20,056 nucleotides of DNA, taken from positions 1 through 20,056 of IMG/VR virus record IMGVR_UViG_3300046755_000075; one strand, given 5' to 3'. The stretch comes from a virus. Below the pieces are notes generated by a model. That model was not told the origin of the DNA, ran no database searches, and saw only the letters and a program-made list of their open reading frames with translations. The first letter of the stretch is position 1. Each line of letters begins with the position of its first letter. Below, piece by piece: positions 1-19,691 of this stretch. The translations under genes and the position numbers were made by a program.

Positions 1-60
1 ACCTTTTTTCTTCATGCCCTTTTGGACATATCCTTGCCAACAAGAGCCTCGTTCGCTCAT
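1..60 (-). CDS. N-terminus of a small CWxGY-type protein (cut by window edge)
   Basis: The ATG is at 60-58 and the frame is open to the window edge, so only about 20 residues are visible. They read MSERGSCWQGYVQKGMKKKG. The CWxGYxxxGMKxKG pattern is one I remember from very short, basic proteins of marine phages, which usually continue into a Pro-Asn-Cys-Val-Pro segment; that part lies outside the window. The start overlaps the stop of the gene at 57-302 in an ATGA arrangement, which supports translation by coupling. Function unknown. Confidence 0.6.
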   Translation of the reverse strand, partial: MSERGSCWQGYVQKGMKKKG

Positions 61-302
61 TTTAACAAGTCACCGTAATAGTTTTTCAATTCATTGTTAG
101 ATAAATTAATATCACCTGATTCATGTTTTATAAATTTACCTTGATAAGCTTTTTTAGGTCCCCAATCTTTTCTTTTTGTACCTGATGGATCTTTTATTTT
201 TCCCGCACATATTTTACTAGCGTATGCATTCGCATATGCAGACGGGTAAACTTTAAATTTTCTTTTTGCGGCCGCTTTGCCTCTAGCACATAGTTTTGTC
301 AT
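57..302 (-). CDS. Small basic Cys-containing protein, conserved marine-phage type
   Basis: 81 residues, very rich in Lys, Arg and Ala, with a CARGKAAAKRKFKVYPSAYA stretch near the N-terminus (residues 5-24) and a second Cys at residue 32. I recall this motif (RGKAAAKxKFxVYPSAYAN) from a family of unknown function in marine phages and environmental genomes, filed as a DUF whose number I cannot state with certainty. AAGAGG lies about 10 bases before the ATG. The stop overlaps the next ATG as ATGA. High charge suggests nucleic-acid or virion association, but that is inference only. Confidence 0.75.
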   Translation of the reverse strand: MTKLCARGKAAAKRKFKVYPSAYANAYASKICAGKIKDPSGTKRKDWGPKKAYQGKFIKHESGDINLSNNELKNYYGDLLK

Positions 303-6388: not shown

Positions 6389-6838
6389 TTAATATAAATG
6401 CAGAATATCTTCTGGTTTTGCTATTGTTGCGATGATTTCATCGTCATTTAAAATACGGTGTTCACCATATTTAGTTTTAAATCTAGAACCGGCATATCTA
6501 CCGTAGATTACAAATTGACCCTTCTTACACCAAGGACCTTTTGGAAATTTTTCCTTATCCTGATAACAAAGATCACCCATCTCAACAACAAGACCAACTA
6601 CGGTTGTCATTTGAATAGTGTCATTCACTGTATCAGTTAAGATAATTCCACCTTTAGTTTTTTTAGGACCTGCATAAGGTCTAACTAAAAGTCTATATCC
6701 AACTGGTTTTGGTATAATGCTTAGATATTTTTTAATACCCTCTGGATCAGTGGGTATGGCATTTTCTTTTGATTCTGGTGGTACCTCACCATTTTTTTTG
6801 ACTCCAACAATAGTGGAATCAGGTGTTATTATCGTCAT
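6389..6838 (-). CDS. GroES-like co-chaperonin (phage-encoded)
   Basis: About 149 residues. After a roughly 38-residue extension, the C-terminal 110 residues follow the Cpn10/GroES pattern: IIPKPVGYRLLVRPYAGPKK as the first strand (like IRPLxDRVxVK), a mobile-loop region GGIILTDTVNDT, VVEMGDLCYQDK, KKGQFVIYGRYAGSRFK and a final DDEIIATI. It could act with the host GroEL to fold capsid protein, as T4 gp31 does. The second ATG (6838) lies 7 bases from GGAG and is preferred over the one at 6844. It overlaps the gene upstream by 20 bases. The N-terminal extension is not typical of cellular GroES. Confidence 0.75.
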   Translation of the reverse strand: MTIITPDSTIVGVKKNGEVPPESKENAIPTDPEGIKKYLSIIPKPVGYRLLVRPYAGPKKTKGGIILTDTVNDTIQMTTVVGLVVEMGDLCYQDKEKFPKGPWCKKGQFVIYGRYAGSRFKTKYGEHRILNDDEIIATIAKPEDILHLY

Positions 6839-7028
6839 CGACATTCTCCTCGTTTCTCTGCAGGCCTTTAAGATCCTGTAGCAGCGTTTCTAAAGCGCTG
6901 AGTTTCCCTTTAGAATACTTGAGGTTGTCGATTGTGTCTATACCGTACACTATGTCGTCTTTGATTTGTTTAATCTGTTTATTGATATAATGTTTTATTG
7001 CGTCTAATGTATCTAGATCAAGATTCAT
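6819..7028 (-). CDS. 69-aa coiled-coil small protein
   Basis: Almost entirely predicted helix: MNLDLDTLDAIKHYINKQIK, then leucine and isoleucine at heptad spacing to QDLKGLQRN, and an acidic tail (ENVDDDNNT). The start overlaps the methyltransferase-like gene by 11 bases and the end overlaps the GroES-like gene, so it is translationally coupled on both sides. A homo-oligomeric coiled coil or an assembly helper is plausible. No motif gives a function. Confidence 0.65.
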   Translation of the reverse strand: MNLDLDTLDAIKHYINKQIKQIKDDIVYGIDTIDNLKYSKGKLSALETLLQDLKGLQRNEENVDDDNNT

Positions 7029-7578
7029 TTTTCTCTAGACAAATTTTGTTTTTGCCTTTTTCTAATTCCTTAAATCCATATTTTTCCATTACTTTTTCAA
7101 TCAAAGGCATGTCGTATTTTGGATAATCGTCGTAAATAATTCTTGTGATAGGTGCAGATCTATTTGCAAACCAGACAGATTCAGTAATGACATCTTTTGT
7201 CATATGAGGACCGTCTAAATGAATAAAGGCAAATTTAGAATCTTTATGTTTTGATGTATTCATAAACTCAACATCAGTTTCTATACTTAAAGAAAATTTA
7301 CCTGCATTTCTGTAAGGTTTAAAATCTTCTAACATTGTATCTCTCATCTCATCTGTGTAATCACAAGTGTATGAGCCTGTGTTATCATAATGTTGGTAAT
7401 TTAAATTACCGTAAGGATCAACACCCACATGAATAAAATTATTGATGATGTTATCCATAATAATCTTAGACCCAAGTCCCTCACGAACTCCGATCTCACA
7501 TGATTTATAACCTTGGCAATCAAATCCTTTACTCCATTTTTCAAGTAGTTCATATTCCAAACTGTCTCCTCTAATCAT
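7018..7578 (-). CDS. Class I SAM-dependent methyltransferase-like protein
   Basis: 186 residues with the layout of small Rossmann methyltransferases. CEIGVREGLGSKIIMD (27-42) resembles SAM-binding motif I (ExGxxxG). D54 in VGVDPYG can be the acidic motif II residue that contacts the ribose. FAFIHLDGPHMTKDV (116-130) gives D122 like the motif IV/strand 5 acidic site, followed by RIIYDDY. This Methyltransf_24-like arrangement occurs in marine phages. The substrate is unknown; a DNA or lipid target cannot be told apart. Lack of an NPPY or PPC motif argues against a classical DNA methyltransferase. It precedes the coiled-coil and GroES-like genes. Confidence 0.6.
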   Translation of the reverse strand: MIRGDSLEYELLEKWSKGFDCQGYKSCEIGVREGLGSKIIMDNIINNFIHVGVDPYGNLNYQHYDNTGSYTCDYTDEMRDTMLEDFKPYRNAGKFSLSIETDVEFMNTSKHKDSKFAFIHLDGPHMTKDVITESVWFANRSAPITRIIYDDYPKYDMPLIEKVMEKYGFKELEKGKNKICLEKNES

Positions 7579-7591
7579 AGAGTAGTTATAT

Positions 7592-7978
7592 CTATTTTTT
7601 TCTATTTGTAAAGATTTGTGATCCCTTTATTCCATAAATACTCGCCACGACGAGGATCCACAGGTTTGTGAACCAGGACGGAAGCTGCGAGAACATCTCA
7701 AAGAACAATTTTACTTTGTCCATCGCTGTAGGATCATCTGATATGACTGCCCAACTCAAAATTGCTACGGGCAAACTTAATATTACGAGAACCGCCTCGT
7801 CCTTCCAGTCCGATTGTCTAGCCTCTAATAATTTGCCCTGATAAGCTTCCTCACCTCGCGCCATCTTCTCGGCATGCATTAGTTGCGCATCCGACATCGC
7901 TTGTTTTGTCTTTTGACGGTTCTGATACAGGTGGGCTCCAGTTTTTAGGCCCATCCCCAATAGCTTTAACCACGGCAT
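7592..7978 (-). CDS. 3TM-type phage holin-like protein
   Basis: 128 residues from the ATG at 7978 (MPWLKLLGMGLKTGAHLYQN). A basic, helical N-terminal half is followed by SDWKDEAVLVILSLPVAILS, a transmembrane helix at about 62-79, and a second one at about 98-115 (LPSWFTNLWILVVASIYG), then a basic end. The WKDE-hydrophobic, P-x-W and final G-x-K pattern is that of the GTA/phage holin with up to three helices, which permeabilises the inner membrane for endolysin release. The ORF is open upstream to 8059, but those codons overlap the endonuclease. AAGGAG is 14 bases from this ATG, longer than usual. It lies away from the M15 gene. Confidence 0.65.
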   Translation of the reverse strand: MPWLKLLGMGLKTGAHLYQNRQKTKQAMSDAQLMHAEKMARGEEAYQGKLLEARQSDWKDEAVLVILSLPVAILSWAVISDDPTAMDKVKLFFEMFSQLPSWFTNLWILVVASIYGIKGSQIFTNRKK

Positions 7979-8294
7979 AATATTGTTCTTTTCTCCTTGT
8001 ACATAAATAGGGTAGCATCTCTTCCATAAACTGTAAAGCACGGTAACCTTTAACACCAAATCTCCAAATATCTTTGTGGTGTTCGTGAACTTTTTTCTTT
8101 CTTTTTCGAATGTTATTGTCTAGTCCAAGATAATTTTGAAATAAATGTACAACTCCCTCATCACTCATTTGTACTTCTAAACATGCACTAGGAGTCCAAC
8201 CATTAGGTCGTTTATTTAAACCAAACCAACCCTCGCCTTCAAATACACCTGATAAAAATATTAACTGCTCTTTTTTAGAGAGTTGGTCAAACAT
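7851..8294 (-). CDS. LAGLIDADG-type homing endonuclease (free-standing)
   Basis: 147 residues. LIFLSGVFEGEGWFGLNKR (residues 11-29) is the single LAGLIDADG dodecapeptide with the catalytic acidic residue in the FEGEG core; downstream lie LEVQMSDEGVVHLF, WRFGVKGYRALQFMEEMLPY and RRKEQYYAVV, the usual order of this family (strand, QxxD/N-EE.l, then a Lys-Arg-rich helix). A single motif implies a homodimer. It likely cuts phage DNA at a site of a rival lacking the gene. No SD is evident. The last 43 codons overlap the holin gene by 128 bases in another frame, so its tail (from about residue 105) may be acquired. It sits between structural genes, not in an intron. Confidence 0.8.
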   Translation of the reverse strand: MFDQLSKKEQLIFLSGVFEGEGWFGLNKRPNGWTPSACLEVQMSDEGVVHLFQNYLGLDNNIRKRKKKVHEHHKDIWRFGVKGYRALQFMEEMLPYLCTRRKEQYYAVVKAIGDGPKNWSPPVSEPSKDKTSDVGCATNACREDGAR

Positions 8295-8300
8295 AAAATG

Positions 8301-8534
8301 TTATAACAGATCTTTTATGTAATCGCCACCTTTTTTAATTTCGACTTCACCACCTACTGATGCACCAGGTATAGATTTAGGCCCCATATCATCTTCTCTT
8401 AACATTCTTAAAATATTACTAGTGTTAGCTTCTAAAGACATACTTGGATCAAACTCAGTTTTCATCAACTCATCAAATTTTATTTGTTTAGCTGGATTAT
8501 TAGCTAAAACTTTTTTTGCAGTGCTACTGGGCAT
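8301..8534 (-). CDS. 77-aa protein with GGEV...DYIKDLL C-terminus
   Basis: A soluble, helical N-terminal part (KVLANNPAKQIKFDELMKTE, NTSNILRMLREDD) is followed by a linker and the C-terminus GGEVEIKKGGDYIKDLL. The same ending, GGEV...KGSDYIKDLID, closes the 139-aa protein at 14379-14798. The 11-base overlap with the 49-aa gene upstream supports translation. It belongs to the run of small proteins after the portal. A structural or virion-targeted role is inferred only from location and from the shared tail. Confidence 0.65.
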   Translation of the reverse strand: MPSSTAKKVLANNPAKQIKFDELMKTEFDPSMSLEANTSNILRMLREDDMGPKSIPGASVGGEVEIKKGGDYIKDLL

Positions 8535-8673
8535 TTAAATTCCTACAAATTGGACAACCTTTTTTATACTTTTCGTGTTTCCAACACGGGTCTTTTTTAA
8601 CTACTTTAGGTTCGTAAACTTGTCTGCTAGGGGTTACTGAATTGATTATAAACTTCCATATTTTTTTTAACAT
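8524..8673 (-). CDS. 49-aa protein with zinc-binding type motif
   Basis: The ATG at 8673-8671 overlaps the stop of the gene at 8673-8855 (TAATG) and it ends TAG at 8526-8524. The N-terminus MLKKIWKFIINSV is amphipathic and could touch a membrane. The C-terminal part holds CWKHEKYKKGCPIC, a Cys-x2-His...Cys-x2-Cys arrangement resembling a small zinc knuckle. The next gene overlaps it by 11 bases. The motif and the stop-start coupling are the case for a real gene. Function unknown. Confidence 0.6.
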   Translation of the reverse strand: MLKKIWKFIINSVTPSRQVYEPKVVKKDPCWKHEKYKKGCPICRNLNAQ

Positions 8674-8855
8674 TATCTTACTCCTTGAAAGTTAAAACCT
8701 TTGACTTGAATTCCTTTTGTGCCTCTTGTGTTTGTTTCCATACACTCATCACATCCACAACCCATTCCACCTGTGACTAACTTAATAGGTGGTACTTGAG
8801 AGTTGGGTCCACTTTTAGGTGGGGTAGTTTTTGTTAATCTTTTATTTTTTATCAT
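8673..8855 (-). CDS. 60-aa small protein with CGCDEC motif
   Basis: A basic, proline-rich start (NKRLTKTTPPKSGPNSQVPP) is followed by a Gly-Gly element (VTGGMGCGCDEC) with three close Cys, and the end GIQVKGFNFQGVR. I recall this sequence plan (KRLTKTxPPKxGP...IQVKGxKFxG) from small proteins near marine phage portal genes. The Cys cluster may bind metal. It is coupled to both neighbours by overlap (ATGA upstream, TAATG downstream). No function is known to me. Confidence 0.65.
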   Translation of the reverse strand: MIKNKRLTKTTPPKSGPNSQVPPIKLVTGGMGCGCDECMETNTRGTKGIQVKGFNFQGVR

Positions 8856-9397
8856 AATAAATTTTTATCTACATTTGATGATATCACAACTTCACCACCG
8901 TCGTCATAAGATTGAAACCCACTTAAAAAATTTTGAGCAGGTGTTTTTATTTGTGTTGTTGGTGTTTTACACGGGGGGTTAGTTCCATCTGGGCATAAAC
9001 TTTGGTTTTGTCCACCTCCTCCAGTGTTACCTATTGTTGCTGCTCCTGTAGTTTTTTTACCTGTAGTTAACATTTCACCACCAAGAATGTCATCTTCACG
9101 TGCATCTTTTAAATTTTTTTTATTATATAGACTTCTTGAAATCGCGTTAAAACCAGCTGTAAGAGGTCCGATAGTAGGAAGTTGTACAGGTCCGCTTCTT
9201 GCAGTTACTTGGTTTGTTTGATTATTTGAAATATTGTTAGCTGATCCACTCATTGTAGATGTTTTACCACCTAAATTAGAATCTCTTCTTCCGACAGAAG
9301 TATTACCCATGGCAGCGCTCTTAGCTTGATTGGACTTGTTACCCATGTCCATACCTCCACCACGTAATTTTCTAACTTTTCTGTTGTTTACTTTCAT
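8852..9397 (-). CDS. 181-aa low-complexity protein after the portal
   Basis: 181 residues rich in Asn, Ser, Gly and Thr, mostly disordered. It opens MKVNNRKVRKLRGGGMDMGN, which I recall from proteins next to marine phage portals. The only folded-looking stretch is GPLTAGFNAISRSLYNKKNL. Near the end, FQSYDDGGEVVISSN carries the GGEV motif shared with neighbours. Its first 26 bases overlap the portal 3' end; an internal ATG (18 codons in) with GGAGG nearby is an alternative start. A connector, internal or neck-associated protein is a guess from context. Confidence 0.7.
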   Translation of the reverse strand: MKVNNRKVRKLRGGGMDMGNKSNQAKSAAMGNTSVGRRDSNLGGKTSTMSGSANNISNNQTNQVTARSGPVQLPTIGPLTAGFNAISRSLYNKKNLKDAREDDILGGEMLTTGKKTTGAATIGNTGGGGQNQSLCPDGTNPPCKTPTTQIKTPAQNFLSGFQSYDDGGEVVISSNVDKNLL

Positions 9398-11705
9398 TCT
9401 GTTTTTCCCTGTTAAGATCTATCTTCTCTTCTGCAATTCTAATTCTTTCATCAGCTTGGTCTTCTGCAGATTCTAACTTCATTTTATCTAAATCAATACG
9501 TTCTTCAAATTCCATGCCTTTTCTTTCTTGATCCATCATATTTTCTTGTGCTTTTCTTTGCATATCCATAGCTCTTAAATCTAATTCTCTTTGCTTTAAG
9601 GCAACTAAAGGATCTTGTTTTTGATTACCCGCTTCTTCCTTCGCTAACCCCATAGTTATTTCTGCAATTCGTTTTGCAACCATAGAATCAAATAAAATTT
9701 TAAAACCGTCTGGATCCATTTGTGATTGTTGTTGCATTTCTGGAGATTCTTGTACTAAATTACCAACCTCACCATGTGCTTGTAGTGCTATGTGGTCAGA
9801 TATATGTCCTTGTAACAAAGCGTACACCATCGGGTTGATTTGAACCATTCTTGAAGCCATAAAAGCTCTATGAGCTGCAATATGCGACTCATGATCTTGT
9901 TGGGGAAACGCTTTTAAGGGTTGCATTTGTAAAGCTTTAGCATTTTCAGTTGCAGGATCTTCAGGTTGTGGTTGTATCTCTGGTTTTAACAAAGAATCAA
10001 TATTTTTTGTACCTAAAGCTTCGTAAACTCTTCTGTAAGCTTCTCTTAGGTTGTGCATTTGTGGATTTGACGCTGCAATTTTTAAATTTTCGTTTGCTAA
10101 AGTTACTCTTTGAGCCATACTCATAATATTTGGGTCTGCAACGGGAATTACATCTACTCTTTCATCAAAATCTTTTAATTTCACAAATCGATCTGCGTTT
10201 GTAACTGCGTATGGATACACAGGAGGTAAGTAATCAGCAAAAACATTTGCTAAAAGTCTAAATTCTTGTCTCATAGCATAGTAACATCGCTTGTGTATTG
10301 CGCTCATGACCCTCGAACCACGTTCTAACAAAGCAATTGTAGTCCCAACCGCTCTATTTTGTGCATCTTCACCCATTTGCATGTCTGCAATTGATGCAAA
10401 ACGTTGTCCTGCTTGTACTACAAAACCTAAAAGTTGAAATAGTGTACCACTTGGCTCTTTAAAAGGTAAAATTTGAAACTGATCTTTAATATTTCCACCA
10501 GGTGCATCAACATCTCTGAACTCTCCAGGCTGAAAAGGTTGATCATCATCACGAATTCTTATTCCTCTAGACTTAAATCCAGCAGGTAAGTTAGCTAATG
10601 TACCCGCATCAAGTAATTGTCTTAATGCTTGCGTAGCAGATCTAGATAATCCACCGATCATATGAATTAAACCAAAACCATAGAACCCTAAACCAGGTAA
10701 AAACTTGTAATGAACAAAGTATTCTTTTCTAGTATAAGTGTCATCATCTTGATTATAGTTTCTGTAGATAGATAATATCTCTCCTGAACCTTCGTCGATT
10801 GAAACGACATAGGGAAGTTTAACTTCTTTCTCTGCATTCTCCATTTCAAACTCATTTAAGTTCAAGTCGATGTGCATTTCTAAAATGTTATATTGATATT
10901 CTTTTTCTCCAGCAGGTTTTACACCTTCTAGCTCATTGAGTTTATCTTGTATTGGACTTTTTTCTGCCTGTTTTGCAATTAATTCAACGTCTCTATAAAA
11001 CCCAGCTTTCTGTTGTTTAAGAACATCGTTCTCTGACATTTTAACAAGATGTGTAATTCTTTCACAATCTTTTAAATCGGTTGCGTAGTATGGAACAATT
11101 AGATCTTCAGCAGGTACAAACTTAGCAACTGCTCTTTGTTTAATTTCATCGTAGTAAATTTTTTTAAATGCAGATCCTGCAAGGGGTAAATAAAATAATA
11201 GTTGATCTGTGTCTGGTGTGTATTCTTCCATTTCTTCCATCAACATATAGTTCATGAAATCTTTAACTCTAGTTGCTTGATCTTCAACTTCTTTTGTTTG
11301 TGCACCAACAACAGATGTTCTCACAGGTCCGTCACTTGGTAATAATTCTTTATAAGCTTGCGCTTGAAATTGTGTTACAGCTTCTGATAAGAGCGGATGG
11401 GTAACACCACTTGCACCTTGAAACGGTCTAGTGTTATTTACATACTTGAATCCAAGTAAATCTAAACCTTGAGTGTAAGCCTGTTCCCAATCCGATCTTG
11501 AAACTTTATCTCTTTTATAATCTTGAATTAATTGAGAAGACATTCGACCAAGAACTCGGTCATCCATGTCCTCAGCTAAGTTTCTATAAAAATCTTCTTC
11601 TGGTGTTTCCTCTTCAGGAAGTTCTTCTTCACCCTCAACTTCTACGTCTACTTCTTCTGTCTCAACTTCTTCAGGAAGTTCATTTTGTTTCTCTATTTCA
11701 GCCAT
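9372..11705 (-). CDS. Portal protein (head-tail connector)
   Basis: 777 residues, long for a portal. Recognised by the portal-type core: RSDWEQAYTQGLDLLGFKYV, RPFQGASGVTHPLLSEAVTQ, QAQAYKELLPSDGPVRTSVV, then DQLLFYLPLAGSAFKKIYYD and FVPAEDLIVPYYATDLKDCE, the wing/stem segment with GDxxQNRAVGTTIALLERGS (crown region), and a Glu/Lys/Met-rich coiled-coil tail. This resembles the large podovirus-like portals of P22 or N4 type rather than the 400-aa lambda class. It would form the dodecameric vertex ring on which the terminase docks. The start overlaps the 137-aa gene stop (TAATG). An acidic N-terminus (about 1-45) precedes the conserved part. Confidence 0.9.
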   Translation of the reverse strand: MAEIEKQNELPEEVETEEVDVEVEGEEELPEEETPEEDFYRNLAEDMDDRVLGRMSSQLIQDYKRDKVSRSDWEQAYTQGLDLLGFKYVNNTRPFQGASGVTHPLLSEAVTQFQAQAYKELLPSDGPVRTSVVGAQTKEVEDQATRVKDFMNYMLMEEMEEYTPDTDQLLFYLPLAGSAFKKIYYDEIKQRAVAKFVPAEDLIVPYYATDLKDCERITHLVKMSENDVLKQQKAGFYRDVELIAKQAEKSPIQDKLNELEGVKPAGEKEYQYNILEMHIDLNLNEFEMENAEKEVKLPYVVSIDEGSGEILSIYRNYNQDDDTYTRKEYFVHYKFLPGLGFYGFGLIHMIGGLSRSATQALRQLLDAGTLANLPAGFKSRGIRIRDDDQPFQPGEFRDVDAPGGNIKDQFQILPFKEPSGTLFQLLGFVVQAGQRFASIADMQMGEDAQNRAVGTTIALLERGSRVMSAIHKRCYYAMRQEFRLLANVFADYLPPVYPYAVTNADRFVKLKDFDERVDVIPVADPNIMSMAQRVTLANENLKIAASNPQMHNLREAYRRVYEALGTKNIDSLLKPEIQPQPEDPATENAKALQMQPLKAFPQQDHESHIAAHRAFMASRMVQINPMVYALLQGHISDHIALQAHGEVGNLVQESPEMQQQSQMDPDGFKILFDSMVAKRIAEITMGLAKEEAGNQKQDPLVALKQRELDLRAMDMQRKAQENMMDQERKGMEFEERIDLDKMKLESAEDQADERIRIAEEKIDLNREKQNESKQQKS

Positions 11706-12118
11706 TAGTATAGTTTAGTTGGTTTTAAATTAACCATTTTTCCGCCTCTAGCTTTAATCATTTTACCTGTTTTAGCTCCGCCAGAAAATCCATCTCCAAA
11801 AGCATTTCCATATTCTCCAGATAATGTTCCACCTTTTTTAGATGTTGCATTTTTTCCTGGACCCATTTTAATAATTTTATCAAATACATTTTTTGCTTTT
11901 GTACCGATACCGATTTTAGATTTTGTAGCACCTTTACCGCCTGACATGATTGAATCTCTGTAGCTTGAATTAGCTCTTGATCTAGCCATTGCACTTGCGC
12001 TTTTGCCACCTCTACCGCTATCTACATTTGCAGCTGTGGTTTTACTACCGAGCGCTTTAGCTCCTAAGTAACCCGCAAGACCAGCCATGATAGCTTTTTT
12101 TATTTTTTTGCTTGCCAT
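11705..12118 (-). CDS. 137-aa basic Gly-rich protein with RGGKMVNLKP tail
   Basis: Low complexity, rich in Lys, Gly and Ala. The N-terminal IKKAIMAGLAGYLGAKALGS (about residues 6-25) is a small-residue hydrophobic helix that may insert in a membrane; the middle is disordered. The end, KARGGKMVNLKPTKLY, is another Gly-Gly tail of the set seen at this locus. AGGAG lies 9 bases before the ATG and the stop overlaps the portal start. An ejected inner-membrane or virion protein would fit, but no homologous function is known to me. Confidence 0.65.
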   Translation of the reverse strand: MASKKIKKAIMAGLAGYLGAKALGSKTTAANVDSGRGGKSASAMARSRANSSYRDSIMSGGKGATKSKIGIGTKAKNVFDKIIKMGPGKNATSKKGGTLSGEYGNAFGDGFSGGAKTGKMIKARGGKMVNLKPTKLY

Positions 12119-12156
12119 GATAATTATCTCCTATTTGTTATAACAGATTTATAATA

Positions 12157-14376
12157 TCACGCAAATATATTTACGACTAGACCACCCGACTGATAAGCCT
12201 TAAAGGGTTTATTAATCATATCTGGGGATATTCTTATAGCAAATACATCCATATATAATCTTGGATCTCCATCCATAATTTTCTCTACTGAGCCACCGTG
12301 TCTTCCTGAGTAAAACAAAGCATCCGCTTCAGTTTGAAATGCTGCAATATGTTCTGTTCCTGCCTGATCTTTATTTACCTTAAAATTCTTACTAGTATTA
12401 TTAAGTTCTTTAACTACCTTAAAAGGCTTACTAGGATCTGATTTAGCCATAGGTATTGTTTTTACTTCCGAATTATATTGTTTAGCAAGTCTTTCCATCT
12501 CAGCAGGTAAAGTTGCTTTCTTTTTTGGATCTGTTTTAACAGTTTTATCTTGAGCCTTAGAGAAAACTTTATAGTTATCAAATCCTGCTTTACCAAATCT
12601 ATTACCATAGAACTCAATGTCTCCTAAATATCTTTCTCTCTTAGCATGGTGCAAATGCTCTACAGGACTAATACCGACCCATTGAACATCCCCTCTATCC
12701 GCCGCATCCTTAATAGTATTTTTTAATGCATGGCTACCCCAGTTCTCTTTTCCGTAAAGAGGTAAGAATGGAATACCGTCTTGAGCTTGGTTCTTTGTAA
12801 TATTAGACAAGTTTAATGAATTACTTCTTAGTTCTTTAAACTCACTGTTTAAATCATAGAATCTTTTTTGATCTTCACGTGAAGCCTTAATTCCTTTTTT
12901 ACTTATATCTTTCATCTCGTTAACAATCTTTTCTAACTTTCTATTTGATGAAAAGAATTCTACTTCAGATCCAAATGCGTTTACAACTTTATCTCTTGTA
13001 GGATTATTGTTTCTCAATGCTTGAGCATAGTCAGCTTGGATCTCATCGATCATTATAATCTTTTGATTATTGGTAGTTGATCTGACATTGCCCCTTACAT
13101 GGTAAATTTGATTAGGAACCCCTGAGTAATGTTTATTATATTCTGAACCAATCTTTTGTCCCATAGGCAAAGGCTTAGGGTAATAAACTAAATTTTCAAA
13201 ATACTCATCACCACCTTTAATTCTATATTCAGAATAGTTTCCATACTTAGGAGTCATCTTCTGTGTGTCTTGTAACTGTATTCGTCTAAAAATATCTATG
13301 TCTTTCGCTTTAGCGATCTCAGTTATTCTACTTACATCAGTTGGATCAATGGCTATCCCTAATTGTCTTGCTCTGTTAACGATAGATTCAAAGTTACCTA
13401 TAGCGTTCCCAAATGGAGAGCCGTCCATGTTAGTATACTCATTATCCCCACTTCTAAATTTATTATACATGTTAGCATTTGTTTTTCTAATACTTCCACT
13501 AAGCACGTTAATATCTTCAATCAAACTTTCGGTTTGTGATCCTATATTAGTTGGTTGTGATAGAAGTTTATTTTTTACGTTGTCTAAAGCGTTGTTCATG
13601 TCTCTACCAATCTCTTCAGCCTCATCAACCATTTTAGTATCGAACTTATACTTTCTCATTACTAGATTGTTCACAGGAGCTTTCTCTACGATATATAATA
13701 AATCCATTTTAGTTAATGGTATCTTCTTCTCAGCAGCAACCTTTAAGAAGCCACCTATTAAGTTTCCATTTTTATCAAACTGTGCAATGTTTGAGTCCCA
13801 CAGTTCTTCTTTCTTAACTGCTTGTGATATGCTTTTAAAATCAGGATTACCTGTTTTAAAAGATCCAGGACCCCCTGATTTAAAATCTCTTACCCACTCC
13901 TCTGCTTTTCTTGCACCTGCAATCGGGTGTCGTGCAATGTAGTCCCAAAGTGAAGAACCAATTCTATTAGTCTTACCCCCACGAGATAGTGGTGCTTGAT
14001 AAGCTATCTTTTTAAGTTCGTTTGATCTAGCGATTGCAACTTGTCTTAATTCATCTTGGGGTTTGTTTTGAGCAACAGTCATCGCCCGTCCTCTATCCAT
14101 TTTAGTTGGAGCTATCTCTAGAATATCTTCAACTTCATCTTTAGGACTGGTTCGTGAAGCAGGAGCCTTAGGTAATTTAATATTAGCTATTTTGTTAATG
14201 ACTCTACCGATAGGGTTCCTAAAAGCCACGGCTCCGGCACCAGCTAAAGCCATACCTGCTAAGCCTCTAGCAGCTGAAGGGTCGTAAGGTTCTGTGTCAG
14301 ATTTATTTAAAGGTACAGAAGATGTAGGTTCATCCTCAATGGTTTCAACCTTTTGTAAATCTGCTAGTCCAGCCAT
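12157..14376 (-). CDS. Large IDEIQ-motif protein between terminase and portal
   Basis: 739 residues. A Gly/Ala-rich hydrophobic segment lies at 38-53 (GLAGMALAGAGAVAF). A domain at about 380-570 shows YSEYRIKGG, NQIYHVRGNVR, KIIMIDEIQADYAQ (443-450 core) and WGSHALKNTIKDAADRG, the order I recall from very large phage and plasmid proteins with an IDEIQSDW signature, many treated as co-injected polyvalent or DarB-like proteins. The exact activity of that domain is not established to my knowledge. The C-terminus reads QSGGLVVNIFA, a Gly-Gly tail. Length and context suggest a virion protein delivered with the DNA. It begins 2 bases after the 139-aa stop. Confidence 0.6.
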   Translation of the reverse strand: MAGLADLQKVETIEDEPTSSVPLNKSDTEPYDPSAARGLAGMALAGAGAVAFRNPIGRVINKIANIKLPKAPASRTSPKDEVEDILEIAPTKMDRGRAMTVAQNKPQDELRQVAIARSNELKKIAYQAPLSRGGKTNRIGSSLWDYIARHPIAGARKAEEWVRDFKSGGPGSFKTGNPDFKSISQAVKKEELWDSNIAQFDKNGNLIGGFLKVAAEKKIPLTKMDLLYIVEKAPVNNLVMRKYKFDTKMVDEAEEIGRDMNNALDNVKNKLLSQPTNIGSQTESLIEDINVLSGSIRKTNANMYNKFRSGDNEYTNMDGSPFGNAIGNFESIVNRARQLGIAIDPTDVSRITEIAKAKDIDIFRRIQLQDTQKMTPKYGNYSEYRIKGGDEYFENLVYYPKPLPMGQKIGSEYNKHYSGVPNQIYHVRGNVRSTTNNQKIIMIDEIQADYAQALRNNNPTRDKVVNAFGSEVEFFSSNRKLEKIVNEMKDISKKGIKASREDQKRFYDLNSEFKELRSNSLNLSNITKNQAQDGIPFLPLYGKENWGSHALKNTIKDAADRGDVQWVGISPVEHLHHAKRERYLGDIEFYGNRFGKAGFDNYKVFSKAQDKTVKTDPKKKATLPAEMERLAKQYNSEVKTIPMAKSDPSKPFKVVKELNNTSKNFKVNKDQAGTEHIAAFQTEADALFYSGRHGGSVEKIMDGDPRLYMDVFAIRISPDMINKPFKAYQSGGLVVNIFA

Positions 14377-14378
14377 TG

Positions 14379-14798
14379 TTAGTCAATCAAATCTTTTATA
14401 TAATCTGACCCTTTACCAAAAGATACTTCACCACCTAAACGTAATTTAGCACTTCCTGTTTTTTTCTGTTCACTGCTTTCTGTATTTGACAAAGTAGCTG
14501 TAGAAGTAGTTGCAGGTGCTGCTGTTACTGTTTTCTTTTTACCCTTAGCAATTCTTCCAACCATAGCTAATGGTGATAAGAACTCTAATCCTTTTGCACC
14601 ACTCTCTTTAGCTTTTTTATATACTTCGACACCTAAGCCCATAAATGCTTTTGTAGGTTTTTTCTTTGGCACCATAATTTTTTCTTCATTAATATTTGCG
14701 CCTTCACCTGTTGTTGTATCTATTTGTAGACCTCTAGGTAAATCTCTAATATTGTTTTTTTTCTCATCTCGACCGTATTTATATTTTTTACCACTCAT
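14379..14798 (-). CDS. 139-aa basic protein with GGEV...DYIKDLID tail
   Basis: Basic N-terminus (SGKKYKYGRDEKKN), then GLQIDTTTGEGANINEEKI, a small hydrophobic part (LEFLSPLAMVGRIAKGKKK), a Thr/Ala/Ser linker, and the end RLGGEVSFGKGSDYIKDLID. That ending matches the 77-aa protein at 8301-8534. It follows the terminase directly: the terminase stop TAG is part of the AGGAG ribosome site of this gene. No enzyme motif. A role in packaging or connector assembly is suggested only by location. Confidence 0.65.
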   Translation of the reverse strand: MSGKKYKYGRDEKKNNIRDLPRGLQIDTTTGEGANINEEKIMVPKKKPTKAFMGLGVEVYKKAKESGAKGLEFLSPLAMVGRIAKGKKKTVTAAPATTSTATLSNTESSEQKKTGSAKLRLGGEVSFGKGSDYIKDLID

Positions 14799-14806
14799 AT
14801 TTTCTC

Positions 14807-16282
14807 CTAATAATATTTGTACTCCTTCGGCACATTATATAATTCTTCTTCATGATCATTTAAAAGTTCTATGAAGTTTCCCTGACGGTATCTTAACACG
14901 GCTTGTGTGGTGCTGTCGACATAGTCATCGTGAGCTCCGTGAGGAAAAGCTGCACATTCTTCAATGACTTCTTCAGCAAATTTCTCATCATCTGGATAAT
15001 ATATTTGGCCACTCTCAAATACTGGGGCGGTAGCGTTGACCCGTGAATGCTTATCCTTGCCCCTTGATGGTACAAATGGAATGACAGGAATCCCCATTCG
15101 TCTGAACTCTTGCATGAGTGGTTCTCCTGTAGCCTTAGCCTCAATGATCACGGACTCCGGTTCCCAGTATTTATACTGATCCATGGCTATTGCTTTTAGT
15201 TCTGGAAAGTCAAACTTACCTTTCATTGCATCTAATAACACCATTGCAGGTTTACCATCTTCTTTGGGAAAGAATACTCCCCAAGTAGTAATGGCTGAGT
15301 AGTCAGCAGTTTCTTTTGCACTGAATGCAGTATCATAAGATTGAATGACATGTTGTAATTTTGGCATCGTAGGTTTGTCCCAAGGTATCCACCATTCTCG
15401 TTTTAAGATTGCACCTTCTTCTGATGTCGGATTCTGCATGTATTGTGCAGACCAGTTTCTAATCGGTAGAGACGCTTTTACTTTTTCTAATTCTTCTAGT
15501 TCCCAATACTCAGGCCATACAGGTTTTCCTGAATCTAAAATTGCAGGAAATGAAATTACATTCCATTTGTCAGCACGAGGCTCTTTTTGAGCCTTGATTA
15601 ATCTTCCTGTTAAATCATCCTCAGCCCATCTTGTCATTACAACTACAATTGAGCCTCCAGGTTGAAGACGTTGTCTTGGTCCTGATACATACCAATCATA
15701 TGCACGTTCCATAGCAGACTCAGATAATGCGTCTTGCTCCGTATGTGGATCGTCAATAATAAGTAAGTCCGCCCCTCGTCCTGTGATAGAACCGCCAACA
15801 CCCGCTGCAAAGTATTCCCCACCTTGATTGGTCTCCCAACGTCCTTTTGCCTTACTATCTTCTCTTAGTCTAACATCTCCGAATATATTTTTATACTCCT
15901 TCTGTTCCATAAGGTTCCTAACTTTAGAACCAAATCTAGATGATAATTCCGCGTTGTGGGAAACCTGCATAATTTTTAGTGTGGGAAACTTCCCTATCAT
16001 CCAAGCAGGAAACAAAAAGGATGCAAATTCTGATTTAGTATGTCTAGGGGGCATATTGATAATGAGCCTCCCTTTTTTTGTATCTGAAATTTTTGTAAAC
16101 TCTGAAGCTATATGTTGATGGTGCCCCCACTTTTTGGGACTAGGATCCAATCTACAAATAAACTCAGGCCAAACTTCCTTCACAAAATATATAAAATTAT
16201 CCTGGCACAACTTTATGTGCTCAATCCATTTTTTTTCTACAGCTAATCTAAGCTGTTCGTTCGTCAGTAATTCTTTTTGCAT
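14807..16282 (-). CDS. terL: Terminase large subunit (TerL)
   Basis: 491 residues with all landmarks of a phage packaging motor. The ATPase domain has a Walker A variant LIINMPPRHTKS (73-84), Walker B LLIIDDPH (173-180) with the coupling acidic pair, and motif III VVMTRW (about 214-219). The C-terminal RNase H-like nuclease has SYDTAF (305-310, D307), an acidic VIIEAKATG (368-376, E371) and HDDYVDS (441-447, D442 to D446) as metal ligands. It cuts concatemers and pumps DNA through the portal. AAGGGG is about 5 bases before the ATG. It is the first gene of the late module, and no convincing small terminase lies directly upstream. Confidence 0.95.
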   Translation of the reverse strand: MQKELLTNEQLRLAVEKKWIEHIKLCQDNFIYFVKEVWPEFICRLDPSPKKWGHHQHIASEFTKISDTKKGRLIINMPPRHTKSEFASFLFPAWMIGKFPTLKIMQVSHNAELSSRFGSKVRNLMEQKEYKNIFGDVRLREDSKAKGRWETNQGGEYFAAGVGGSITGRGADLLIIDDPHTEQDALSESAMERAYDWYVSGPRQRLQPGGSIVVVMTRWAEDDLTGRLIKAQKEPRADKWNVISFPAILDSGKPVWPEYWELEELEKVKASLPIRNWSAQYMQNPTSEEGAILKREWWIPWDKPTMPKLQHVIQSYDTAFSAKETADYSAITTWGVFFPKEDGKPAMVLLDAMKGKFDFPELKAIAMDQYKYWEPESVIIEAKATGEPLMQEFRRMGIPVIPFVPSRGKDKHSRVNATAPVFESGQIYYPDDEKFAEEVIEECAAFPHGAHDDYVDSTTQAVLRYRQGNFIELLNDHEEELYNVPKEYKYY

Positions 16283-17874: not shown

Positions 17875-17955
17875 TTTATTTTCTCCTTGTTAAGTTAGTT
17901 TCCTAATTCCTATCATATCCCATGTAGTAATCAAGTTTTATTTTTCAGAAAATTT

Positions 17956-18141
17956 ATCCAGCTCCACCAAACTCCAGCTGCAGACTGGGCTCCTGACCTA
18001 GTTCTTCTATCTCTCTACATTGCAGATGTCGTCGTGGGTGTGGGACAGAGCTTCCTGATCCAGCAGCCTCTTCCCAGCTGGCCAGGCCAGTAGCTTGGTT
18101 CACACAAGGTACCGTACGAGCAGTGCCTGCGTGGGCGTGGG
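17956..18141. repeat. GC-rich intergenic block B (two repeat units)
   Basis: The 381-base gap 17875-18255 holds a short AT-rich leader (17875-17955, with TTGATT at 17934-17929 and CATGGGATA) and this GC-rich block. Unit B1 (17956-18044) has CCAGCTGCAGACTGG, CTCCTGA, TAGTTC, TTGCAGATG, GTGGGTGTGGG. Unit B2 (18053-18141) has CCTGATCCAGCAGC, CCCAGCTGGCCAGGCCAG, GTGGGCGTGGG. Both match block C in order. A 62-codon frame on the minus strand (18015-18203) looks spurious. 18142-18255 shows nothing further. Confidence 0.65.
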
Positions 18142-18255
18142 CTCAGTGACCAAGTCCTGTGCATCCACGGATCAGGGCCACCAGTACAAAGATGTACGTC
18201 CATCCGGCAAACCTAGGGAAGAACACTAATGGCGTCAGAAGAGCTAGCAACCATA

Positions 18256-18564
18256 TCAAGCAGCCTCCTGCGCGGCCAGCTCCTGAGCGCAGATCTCAAC
18301 AGCCAACCATACCATACTGTTCTTGAAGGCGGTGGGTCCACGGATGTCCTTGTCCAGCAGGTAGAAGACTGACTCACCAGCGGCATCCGCTGCGTGCCTC
18401 ACCTGCTTCCACACATCAGCTTCGTGCTCATTATAGAAGGCGGTGGTCTCTACGTAGTACGTGAGTCCTGGAACTCCGCCACTACAGCCGTGCTTCGCGA
18501 TGTCAGAAATAAGGAACTGCTCATGCAGTTCCCCTTCCTTTAACCATTCTTTTATCGTCCCCAT
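18256..18564 (-). CDS. Conserved phage protein, GCSGGVxGLxYY type (102 aa)
   Basis: 102 residues. MGTIKEWLKEGELHEQFLIS, then IAKHGCSGGVPGLTYYVETT and FYNEHEADVWKQVRHAAD match a small conserved phage/bacterial family I recall with the GCSGGVSGLIYY and HDEHEEEIW signatures. It ends in an Ala/Glu-rich helix, EICAQELAAQEAA. The last 13 codons are unusually GC-rich and resemble the intergenic repeat units. GGAGG is 7 bases before the ATG. It overlaps the upstream gene by 13 bases. Function unknown; HxxH/Cys residues might bind metal. Confidence 0.75.
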   Translation of the reverse strand: MGTIKEWLKEGELHEQFLISDIAKHGCSGGVPGLTYYVETTAFYNEHEADVWKQVRHAADAAGESVFYLLDKDIRGPTAFKNSMVWLAVEICAQELAAQEAA

Positions 18565-18893
18565 GTGATGCCCTCCACGTCTGTCTTGAACTTCACCATC
18601 TGTCGATGCTGTAGCTTAGTAAGTACTTTAGGTACATTGTCTAATGTGCCTTCACCCTTGAGTCGAGATCCTTTGGTAATCCTAACCCACATCTTCTCGT
18701 GGTGACCTCTATGCTTGAACCATACGTATACGTAATCCTGCATCTTTCTCTGCCTTTCAAGGGCTTTGATTTTAAAGTAAGTTTCTTTTCCATGCTCTGG
18801 ACAAGAGTAGACGATGTTACCTTTCGCTTCTTCAGAGTCTAGTGGATCTCTCCAAATGAAGTTATCTTCAATGTTCTTTTTAATGTTTACCAT
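18552..18893 (-). CDS. 113-aa conserved protein
   Basis: The ATG at 18893 (MVNIKKNIEDNFIWRDPLDS) is chosen because AGGAG lies 7 bases upstream; the frame is open to 19028 but that part overlaps a better small gene. The protein has VYSCPEHGKETYFKIKALER, then VYVWFKHRGHHEKMWVRI and a basic C-terminal region ending ITWGR. CPxHG plus the later His pair may make a small metal site. It overlaps both neighbours. I recall the TYFKIKALERQRK stretch from phage proteins but not a role. Confidence 0.7.
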   Translation of the reverse strand: MVNIKKNIEDNFIWRDPLDSEEAKGNIVYSCPEHGKETYFKIKALERQRKMQDYVYVWFKHRGHHEKMWVRITKGSRLKGEGTLDNVPKVLTKLQHRQMVKFKTDVEGITWGR

Positions 18894-18967
18894 ATGATAA
18901 CTCCTGTGATTGTAAGCAGACCTACCCATAGGAATGCAAATATTAGTTCTGGAAGTATTGTGTTCAT
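18887..18967 (-). CDS. 26-aa single-transmembrane peptide
   Basis: The ATG at 18967-18965 is 6 bases after an excellent SD (AAAGGAG), and the stop TAA at 18889-18887 overlaps the next gene's ATG region. The peptide begins MNTILPELIFAFLWVGLLTI and ends TGVIIW, one membrane helix with no charged residue after Glu7. It is the first gene after promoter 18994-19022. Short hydrophobic phage proteins of this kind may act on host membrane proteins. The SD, the promoter and the 7-base overlap with the next gene are strong evidence for expression. Confidence 0.65.
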   Translation of the reverse strand: MNTILPELIFAFLWVGLLTITGVIIW

Positions 18968-18993
18968 TTCTTTCTCCTTTGTTAGTTATGTAA

Positions 18994-19022
18994 TAGATAA
19001 GACATGATGGGATAGATGTCAA
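18994..19022 (-). promoter_or_regulatory. Sigma70-type promoter upstream of the small-TM gene
   Basis: TTGACA (19022-19017), a 17-base spacer (19016-19000) and TATCTA (18999-18994) on the minus strand. Start expected near 18987, a 20-base leader with AAAGGAG before the ATG at 18967. The spacer contains TATCCCATCATG. Block C lies directly upstream. Confidence 0.65.
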
Positions 19023-19044
19023 GTTCATCTTTCAAATAAATTTT

Positions 19045-19301
19045 TCCCTGATCCACAGCAGCTTCCAGCTGCAGACTGGTGCCCAGCTCCTGAAGGTTTA
19101 GTTCAGGACAGCAGGTTAGCTTTGCAGATGGGAATGGGGGCGTGGGTCGAGAAAGGAAAATGAAAATAAACCATACCCACACCCTGTAGGAACATACCAT
19201 TTCCTGACCAGCAGCGCCAGATCCCAGTGCCCAGCTCACCAGGCCAGAGTTTAATAGTTCAAAAGTGTTGTGGGAGTGGGAGTGTGGGCGTGGGCGTGGG
19301 G
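19045..19301. repeat. GC-rich intergenic block C (two repeat units, G-quadruplex motif)
   Basis: A gene-free GC-rich stretch between the VRR-NUC stop and the promoter at 18994-19022. Unit C1 (19045-19146) has CCTGATCCACAGCAGC, CCAGCTGCAGACTGG (19065-19079, identical to 17974-17988), CTCCTGA, TTTAGTTC, TTTGCAGATG, GGGGGCGTGGG. Unit C2 (19200-19301) has CCTGACCAGCAGC, CCCAGCTCACCAGGCCAG and five G-runs at 19272-19301. An 85-codon frame on the minus strand through it looks spurious. Confidence 0.65.
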
Positions 19302-19691
19302 TCAGGCCTCACGGCTGCTTCCACGCGGTCCCAGCTGGGATGCGAAGGTGATTAAAGTTTTAAGATCCGTGTGGCGGGAGAGTGGGACGGCGGTACGGGA
19401 CTCACGGCTCACGGCCAGAAGTTCATAGGGCGCCTTCAAGAGGGGCCTATTCAAGATATACGCTCTACCACCTGCTTTCAAGTATTTAATATGCCAATTG
19501 ATTTGGTACTTTGACAGACCACAATTCTTGCTGGTGTTGGCTTTGAGTTCAAGCCAAAATACTTGCTTGTTTACGACACAATGAACATCGGGAATACCAT
19601 TTACTGTGCTAGATTCTACGCGGGTAAAATGCCAATTTTTATCTAGGTTTTTAAGCTGTTGCCATATCCTAGTTTCTTTGTTTTGAGCCAT
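19302..19691 (-). CDS. VRR-NUC domain nuclease
   Basis: 129 residues. The VRR-NUC (PD-(D/E)XK superfamily) core is clear: helix MAQNKETRIWQQLKNLD, then GIPDVHCV (G32, D35), WLELKA (E48, K50), and LSKYQINWHIKYLKAGGRAY (59-78, Q63 and H67 as later motif residues). D35, E48 and K50 are the metal site. Such short single-domain phage nucleases may resolve Holliday junctions, degrade host DNA or trim ends. About 40 C-terminal residues beyond the domain (from SRESRTAV on) are encoded by GC-rich DNA like the adjacent repeat block, so the tail may be recent. The SD is weak (TAAGAT). Confidence 0.85.
   Translation of the reverse strand: MAQNKETRIWQQLKNLDKNWHFTRVESSTVNGIPDVHCVVNKQVFWLELKANTSKNCGLSKYQINWHIKYLKAGGRAYILNRPLLKAPYELLAVSRESRTAVPLSRHTDLKTLITFASQLGPRGSSREA

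Follow-up and report, generated by a model that had tools for sequence, protein, structure and literature searches.

The DNA analysed here, a window of 20,056 bases that makes up the whole of virus record IMGVR_UViG_3300046755_000075, is a fragment of an HTVC023P-type pelagiphage genome, and around its portal gene otherwise unrelated proteins end in short conserved peptides, here called tags. The window portal protein (phrog_1216; 9372..11705, minus strand), which has no tag itself, has 71% identity to the portal of Pelagibacter phage HTVC023P across 95% of its length. The two phages have the head gene order in common: terminase large subunit (TerL), variable genes, portal, small genes, GroES, a scaffold-like protein and capsid, the last being a Phage_capsid_4 / Mu gpT-like protein. 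In the window these genes, like all the tagged genes described below, lie on the minus strand.

Tagged protein ends in the window

Two of the proteins, a helical protein of 77 amino acids (8301..8534) and a 139-amino acid protein encoded between TerL and the gene for a 739-amino acid protein (14379..14798), have a 17-residue C-terminal tag in common, GGEVxxxKGxDYIKDL(L/I). This tag, which we call class A, reads GGEVEIKKGGDYIKDLL at 8304-8354 in the 77-amino acid protein and GGEVSFGKGSDYIKDLID at 14382-14435 in the 139-amino acid protein. The two ends match with a score of 62, against 18 for the second-best pair in the window, while 4 of their 12 same-residue codons differ. Homologues of the 139-amino acid protein carry the same tag in many contigs. 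The 137-amino acid protein, whose gene lies directly upstream of the portal gene (11705..12118), has a class C tag, ARGGKMVNLKPTKLY, running from the Gly-Gly to the end at 11708-11746, and HTVC023P gp30 has a similar class C end, ARGGGMARMKPTKMY. A 60-amino acid protein (8673..8855) has the class B-like tail RGTKGIQVKGFNFQGVR at 8676-8726. At the left edge of the window an open reading frame (ORF) of 81 amino acids (57..302), from a family with the motif MTKLCxRGKAAAKRKF, ends in ...NYYGDLLK (60-83), which is a variant of class A; elsewhere the homologues of this ORF terminate in class B.

Two further ends are each conserved in one family only. The 181-amino acid protein (8852..9397) has the class D tail GGEVVISSNVDKNLL at 8855-8899, in place of which its HTVC023P homologue, gp32, has a class B end. 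The 739-amino acid protein (12157..14376) has the class E tail GGLVVNIFA at 12160-12186, in which G731, G732, L733, N736 and F738 are invariant.

The first-pass annotation had quoted the ends of five of these proteins (77, 139, 181, 137 and 739 amino acids), all of which we located in the sequence, and had read them as one element, a hydrophobic residue followed by Gly-Gly and a nearby Val or Met. A loose GGx[V/M] or GG[V/M] is present in all five, but four different ends had been joined as one motif; the residue before the Gly-Gly is inconsistent (V, L, D, R and S are found), and the 60-amino acid protein and the 81-amino acid ORF had been missed. The loose pattern occurs in the last 20-30 residues of 5 of the 31 window genes, whereas shuffles or random positions predict about 0.5-1.1 (p <= 0.0005). 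A slightly wider Gly-Gly form was also found in the last 22 residues of 4 of 51 T7 ORFs and 7 of 81 lambda ORFs. Because T7 and lambda protein ends have it at similar rates, a Gly-Gly near the end is weak evidence by itself, and the specific tags were taken as the signal instead.

Extent, exchange and placement of the tags

To compare protein ends in loci chosen by portal similarity alone (L002-L081), we took pairs of genes on the same contig whose bodies had no similarity (BLAST E > 0.01), compared each pair at four places and called a pair alike where a 14-residue stretch scored at least 30. Each distinct sequence pair was counted once, related contigs not being independent. Body-unrelated pairs were alike 24 times at the C-terminal end, 3 times at a place 15 residues upstream, twice at the N-terminal end and never in the middle of the protein. 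A larger set that includes loci selected by their tags gave 75 pairs at the C-terminal end against 3, 3 and 0 at the other places. No comparable C-terminal pair was found in T7, lambda, HTVC010P or HTVC019P, where the best scores were 18-28.

We searched 2.9 million viral contigs with the class A pattern KGxDYIKDL, made further scans, and also fetched contigs by portal similarity; in the latter the class A tag, consensus GxDYIKDL[L/I], recurs on many proteins. Comparing C-terminal ends within contigs revealed two more classes, class B, RGxGxA[IV]xGxxFxGV[FKR], and class C, ...KPTKL[Y/F/C], which often takes the form GG[S/E]V-ARGNKLAR-KPTKL-. Counting a motif as terminal when the protein ends no more than 4 residues after it, the class A core is terminal in 160 of 163 distinct proteins among the matches listed from all scans; the other three come from two unrelated proteins, and one terminal instance (L120) may also be due to chance. 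In the pattern scans class B is terminal in 154 of 155 distinct instances and class C in 93 of 93, which puts 407 of the 411 instances of the three classes at the C-terminus.

Once the last 20 residues are taken off, the tagged bodies fall into about 21-23 clusters for class A among the matches listed (an approximate number, as low-complexity sequence may join the largest cluster), 32 for class B and 5 for class C. As many as three tagged genes with different bodies occur on a single contig, and 13 longer records have 0-3 occurrences of the class A pattern each. A cellular origin of the tags was rejected, as 84,980 cellular genomes gave 11 pattern matches, none of them a terminal tag. The first-pass annotation had allowed that the motif might be equally common at protein ends elsewhere; this proved true of the loose Gly-Gly form in T7 and lambda and untrue of the specific tags in the cellular genomes, T7, lambda, HTVC010P and HTVC019P. 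Searching phage records with the bare tags by tblastn returned no useful match, the queries being too short, and the 739-amino acid protein had no match in phage records. Searches of the tagged proteins against Pfam, PHROGs and NCBIfam returned almost no named domains. RepL and dockerin/EF-hand matches on single tagged members were not used, and an ADP-ribosyltransferase-like body suspected by eye in a 140-amino acid protein (L153) gained no support from Pfam and is not claimed.

The classes are exchanged on related bodies. We counted 948 pairs of homologous bodies that carry a different tag class in different phages, a number in which related sequences are counted repeatedly and which depends on broad class definitions. 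The exchange is clearest in a family whose bodies, about 65-71% identical, reach a common ...TKKFSKGG and continue as KDYIKDLL (class A), AIQGTKFNGVR (class B) or KGCGKVMNDRRKVTKMY (C-like). Since related bodies of one family continue from this point with any of three ends, the Gly-Gly looks like a hinge ahead of a swappable peptide. In one case, judged from the gene order of L177 and L097, the class switch could have come about by deletion between adjoining tagged genes. HTVC023P has tagged proteins in gp51 and gp53 as well as in gp30 and gp32. A separate module, GYGAARTSGMGL[EQ]DE-L-PGK, recurs within tagged proteins or immediately ahead of the tag, as in HTVC023P gp53 (L082 33143-33508) and a 381-amino acid protein (L122).

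The tagged genes occupy a limited part of the genome. None of 477 distinct tagged genes that could be placed, many of them on short contigs, had TerS or replication genes as its nearest landmark. Where neighbouring genes are labelled, the tagged genes sit between TerL and portal, between portal and GroES or scaffold, or between an M15 peptidase and the tail-adaptor region, with class C genes almost only between TerL and portal. HTVC023P-type core genes are present on 91% (class A), 93% (class B) and 95% (class C) of the tagged loci, although the pattern scans were not seeded by those genes. In the window the upstream limit of the tagged-gene region is TerL (14807..16282, minus strand), and the downstream limit on the portal side is a GroES-like co-chaperonin (6389..6844, minus strand).

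Other features of the window include a 147-amino acid ORF in the head region (7851-8294, minus strand), a possible homing endonuclease by its weak similarity to LAGLIDADG endonucleases (E 0.02, below cut-off), which overlaps a 155-amino acid ORF (7592-8059). A 186-amino acid protein (7018-7578) has a weak Methyltransf_24 match, also below cut-off, and its position is kept in related phages. The right end (17954-19691), where the GC content climbs from about 36% to 48% and 19302-19691 weakly matches an Hjc resolvase, may be a recent acquisition.

Selection on the peptide and the proposed role

When two tags of one contig have the same residue, the codons differ in 39.5% of cases, where 51% would be expected if codons were drawn independently from phage codon usage; the DNA has thus largely diverged while the residues were kept. 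The modelled tails are disordered. An AlphaFold2 model of the 739-amino acid protein, built from 26 sequences, is mostly ordered (mean predicted local distance difference test score, pLDDT, 77.6), yet residues 731-739 have a pLDDT of about 29 and are nearly invariant among homologues at 25-93% identity. The model of the 77-amino acid protein has three helices and a mean pLDDT of 61.5, with residues 50-77 below 50, and the invariant columns of its family concentrate in the tail. Diverged codons with kept residues, taken with the disordered modelled tails, argue that selection acts on the peptide. The low-confidence tails are consistent with, rather than proof of, a free docking peptide. The variable residue x in KGxDYIKDL is the same within a contig in 34 of 50 pairs, against a null of 15.2 +/- 3.0, a number to which phylogeny contributes; this agreement points to a partner in common or to tags being exchanged.

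The 739-amino acid protein has no Pfam domain above cut-off, and its model gave nothing significant against the PDB. In BFVD the model does match large phage proteins, the best with E 1.8e-12, and matches annotated with large polyvalent protein associated domains have E values of 2e-3 to 3e-3. A fold that matches viral proteins of polyvalent type would fit cargo-like content of the tagged set and favours a loading role.

The tags are very probably modular C-terminal signals acting at the protein level. A common docking or packaging tag for portal, scaffold or membrane, as first proposed, survives as to its kind, since the tags are exactly C-terminal, modular, swapped, conserved as protein and confined to the head and portal region. 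What falls away is the single motif, replaced by at least three interchangeable classes and two family-bound ends, and a membrane role is disfavoured, with a transmembrane-like stretch in 4% of tagged proteins against 11% of other small proteins.

By analogy with known loading peptides, we propose, with a probability of roughly 0.55, that the tags serve as docking peptides by which proteins, most likely small effectors or cargo, are loaded into the head as it assembles. On this view the small proteins, a set that varies between phages, would each have a flexible Gly-Gly hinge near the end and, beyond it, one of several peptides that would bind a structural protein of the phage, be it shell, scaffold or portal, while the head is built; the attached body would be carried into the head, and the cargo would then be delivered to the host with the DNA. 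Several observations weigh against loading. Three classes are interchangeable, though one site should need one class, so that several receptors or several solutions would be required; most tagged bodies are without a recognisable domain; and the isolated phages HTVC027P and 023Pt_psg01 have no comparable shared tags, which shows that not every member of the wider group has the trait. A more speculative and doubtful extension is that the classes form a small address code, in which each peptide would dock at a different head site, effectors would be re-labelled by swapping and a mixed cargo would be injected into Pelagibacter, with related Roseobacter phages using an N-terminal label.

The tags might instead dock proteins on a structural or assembly protein (portal, scaffold or GroES/GroEL) or on the outside of the virion, with no packaging or injection, making the tagged proteins assembly factors or decorations. 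The tag data fit such a role equally well and the genes sit around portal, co-chaperonin and scaffold; we nevertheless think it unlikely, as the variable, lineage-specific bodies would fit host-directed cargo better and the set includes a large polyvalent-type body. C-degrons, recognised by the host's ClpXP or a different protease and so setting protein levels, could account for an exact C-terminal site on unrelated proteins and for hydrophobic ends such as DLL and DLI. Such degrons are improbable here, however, given that three chemically unlike classes swap on the same bodies, that the motifs are 12-20 residues long and not ssrA-like, and that the genes are found in the late head region only.

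The remaining alternatives deny the peptide a function of its own. That the ends are functionless relics of gene duplication with diverged bodies would agree with the frequent adjoining of tagged genes, and the bodies are judged unrelated by BLAST and phmmer thresholds only; but the end persists as bodies are replaced, one body can carry different classes and the invariant columns of the 77-amino acid family cluster in the tail, which makes relics quite improbable. The peptides could also be translated DNA features, such as recombination joints, ribosome-binding sites or elements coupling translation of the next gene. Tag swapping itself requires recombination near the joint, and the start of the next gene overlaps the stop codon by one base in 62 of 128 scored cases. 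We consider a DNA feature very improbable all the same, because the codons have diverged to about three quarters of independence with the residues kept, a Shine-Dalgarno-like run is found in only 50 of 135 tags and the distances to the next start vary.

Should the tags be loading signals, the last 15 residues alone would mark unknown proteins of an abundant marine phage group as virion cargo, and for SAR11 phages a list of likely host-takeover proteins could be drawn up for each genome. How phages choose their internal proteins, an open question, would become testable by tag swaps.

Comparison with known systems

The GlyGly-CTERM and PEP-CTERM sorting domains are recurring C-terminal regions on unrelated proteins, one kind having a Gly-Gly, and they require a sortase and a C-terminal transmembrane helix that basic residues follow. 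The tagged proteins gave no NCBIfam match to them up to E = 1 and have few transmembrane-like stretches. Nor do the tags have the common hydrophobic or Ala-rich end, recognised by ClpX, of ssrA-like degrons, as the swappable classes end differently (DLL/DLID, GVF/GVK and KLY/KIC).

In the T4 internal proteins and P1 DarB, a short terminal capsid targeting sequence sends unrelated proteins into the head, although the P1 study found no consensus among Dar proteins (PMC9024508). The likeness to the tags is that of a short terminal peptide on unrelated proteins; the T4 and P1 signals are N-terminal, whereas classes A, B and C are C-terminal, follow a Gly-Gly hinge and can be swapped for one another. 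What looks most like the T4 and P1 sequences is a feature of Roseobacter phage CRP-902 (L087 37200-42451), in which four proteins (513, 178, 248 and 436 amino acids) encoded between portal and GroES share an N-terminus, MANP[VI]K...; a PBECR5 nuclease domain occurs in one of them and a GNAT domain in another. The same pattern is repeated in four related viral contigs (L412, L420, L423 and L424). PBECR domains have been discussed as likely virion-packaged, injected effectors (PMC5512222), and together with the CRP-902 N-terminal tag this supports, by analogy only, the view that the head region encodes packaged cargo.

Polyvalent proteins are large and multidomain, are often encoded near virion genes and are predicted to be packaged and injected (Iyer et al. 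2017; PMC5512222). The 739-amino acid protein is encoded in the portal and terminase region and its model matches such proteins in BFVD, but it may or may not belong with them, having no Pfam domain above cut-off. That work describes domains, the phrase "C-terminal motif" does not occur in its main text (PMC5512222), and most of the small tagged proteins are not of the polyvalent kind. Encapsulin cargo-loading peptides are C-terminal, about 10 residues long and carried by different cargo proteins encoded beside the gene for an HK97-fold shell (PMC7355545). The tags likewise are short conserved C-terminal peptides on different bodies, encoded in the same region as portal and capsid, but encapsulins are cellular compartments with other peptide sequences, and a pocket for the tags on the inner face of the phage shell, like that of the HK97-fold encapsulin shell, would be hypothetical.

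We found no earlier description of the C-terminal peptides in searches of the open-access literature that also covered HTVC023P and C-terminal packaging signals. The closest known systems are the T4 and P1 targeting sequences and the encapsulin loading peptides, and if the tags do load proteins into the head they would match the N-terminal signals of T4 and P1 with a C-terminal kind that has several classes.

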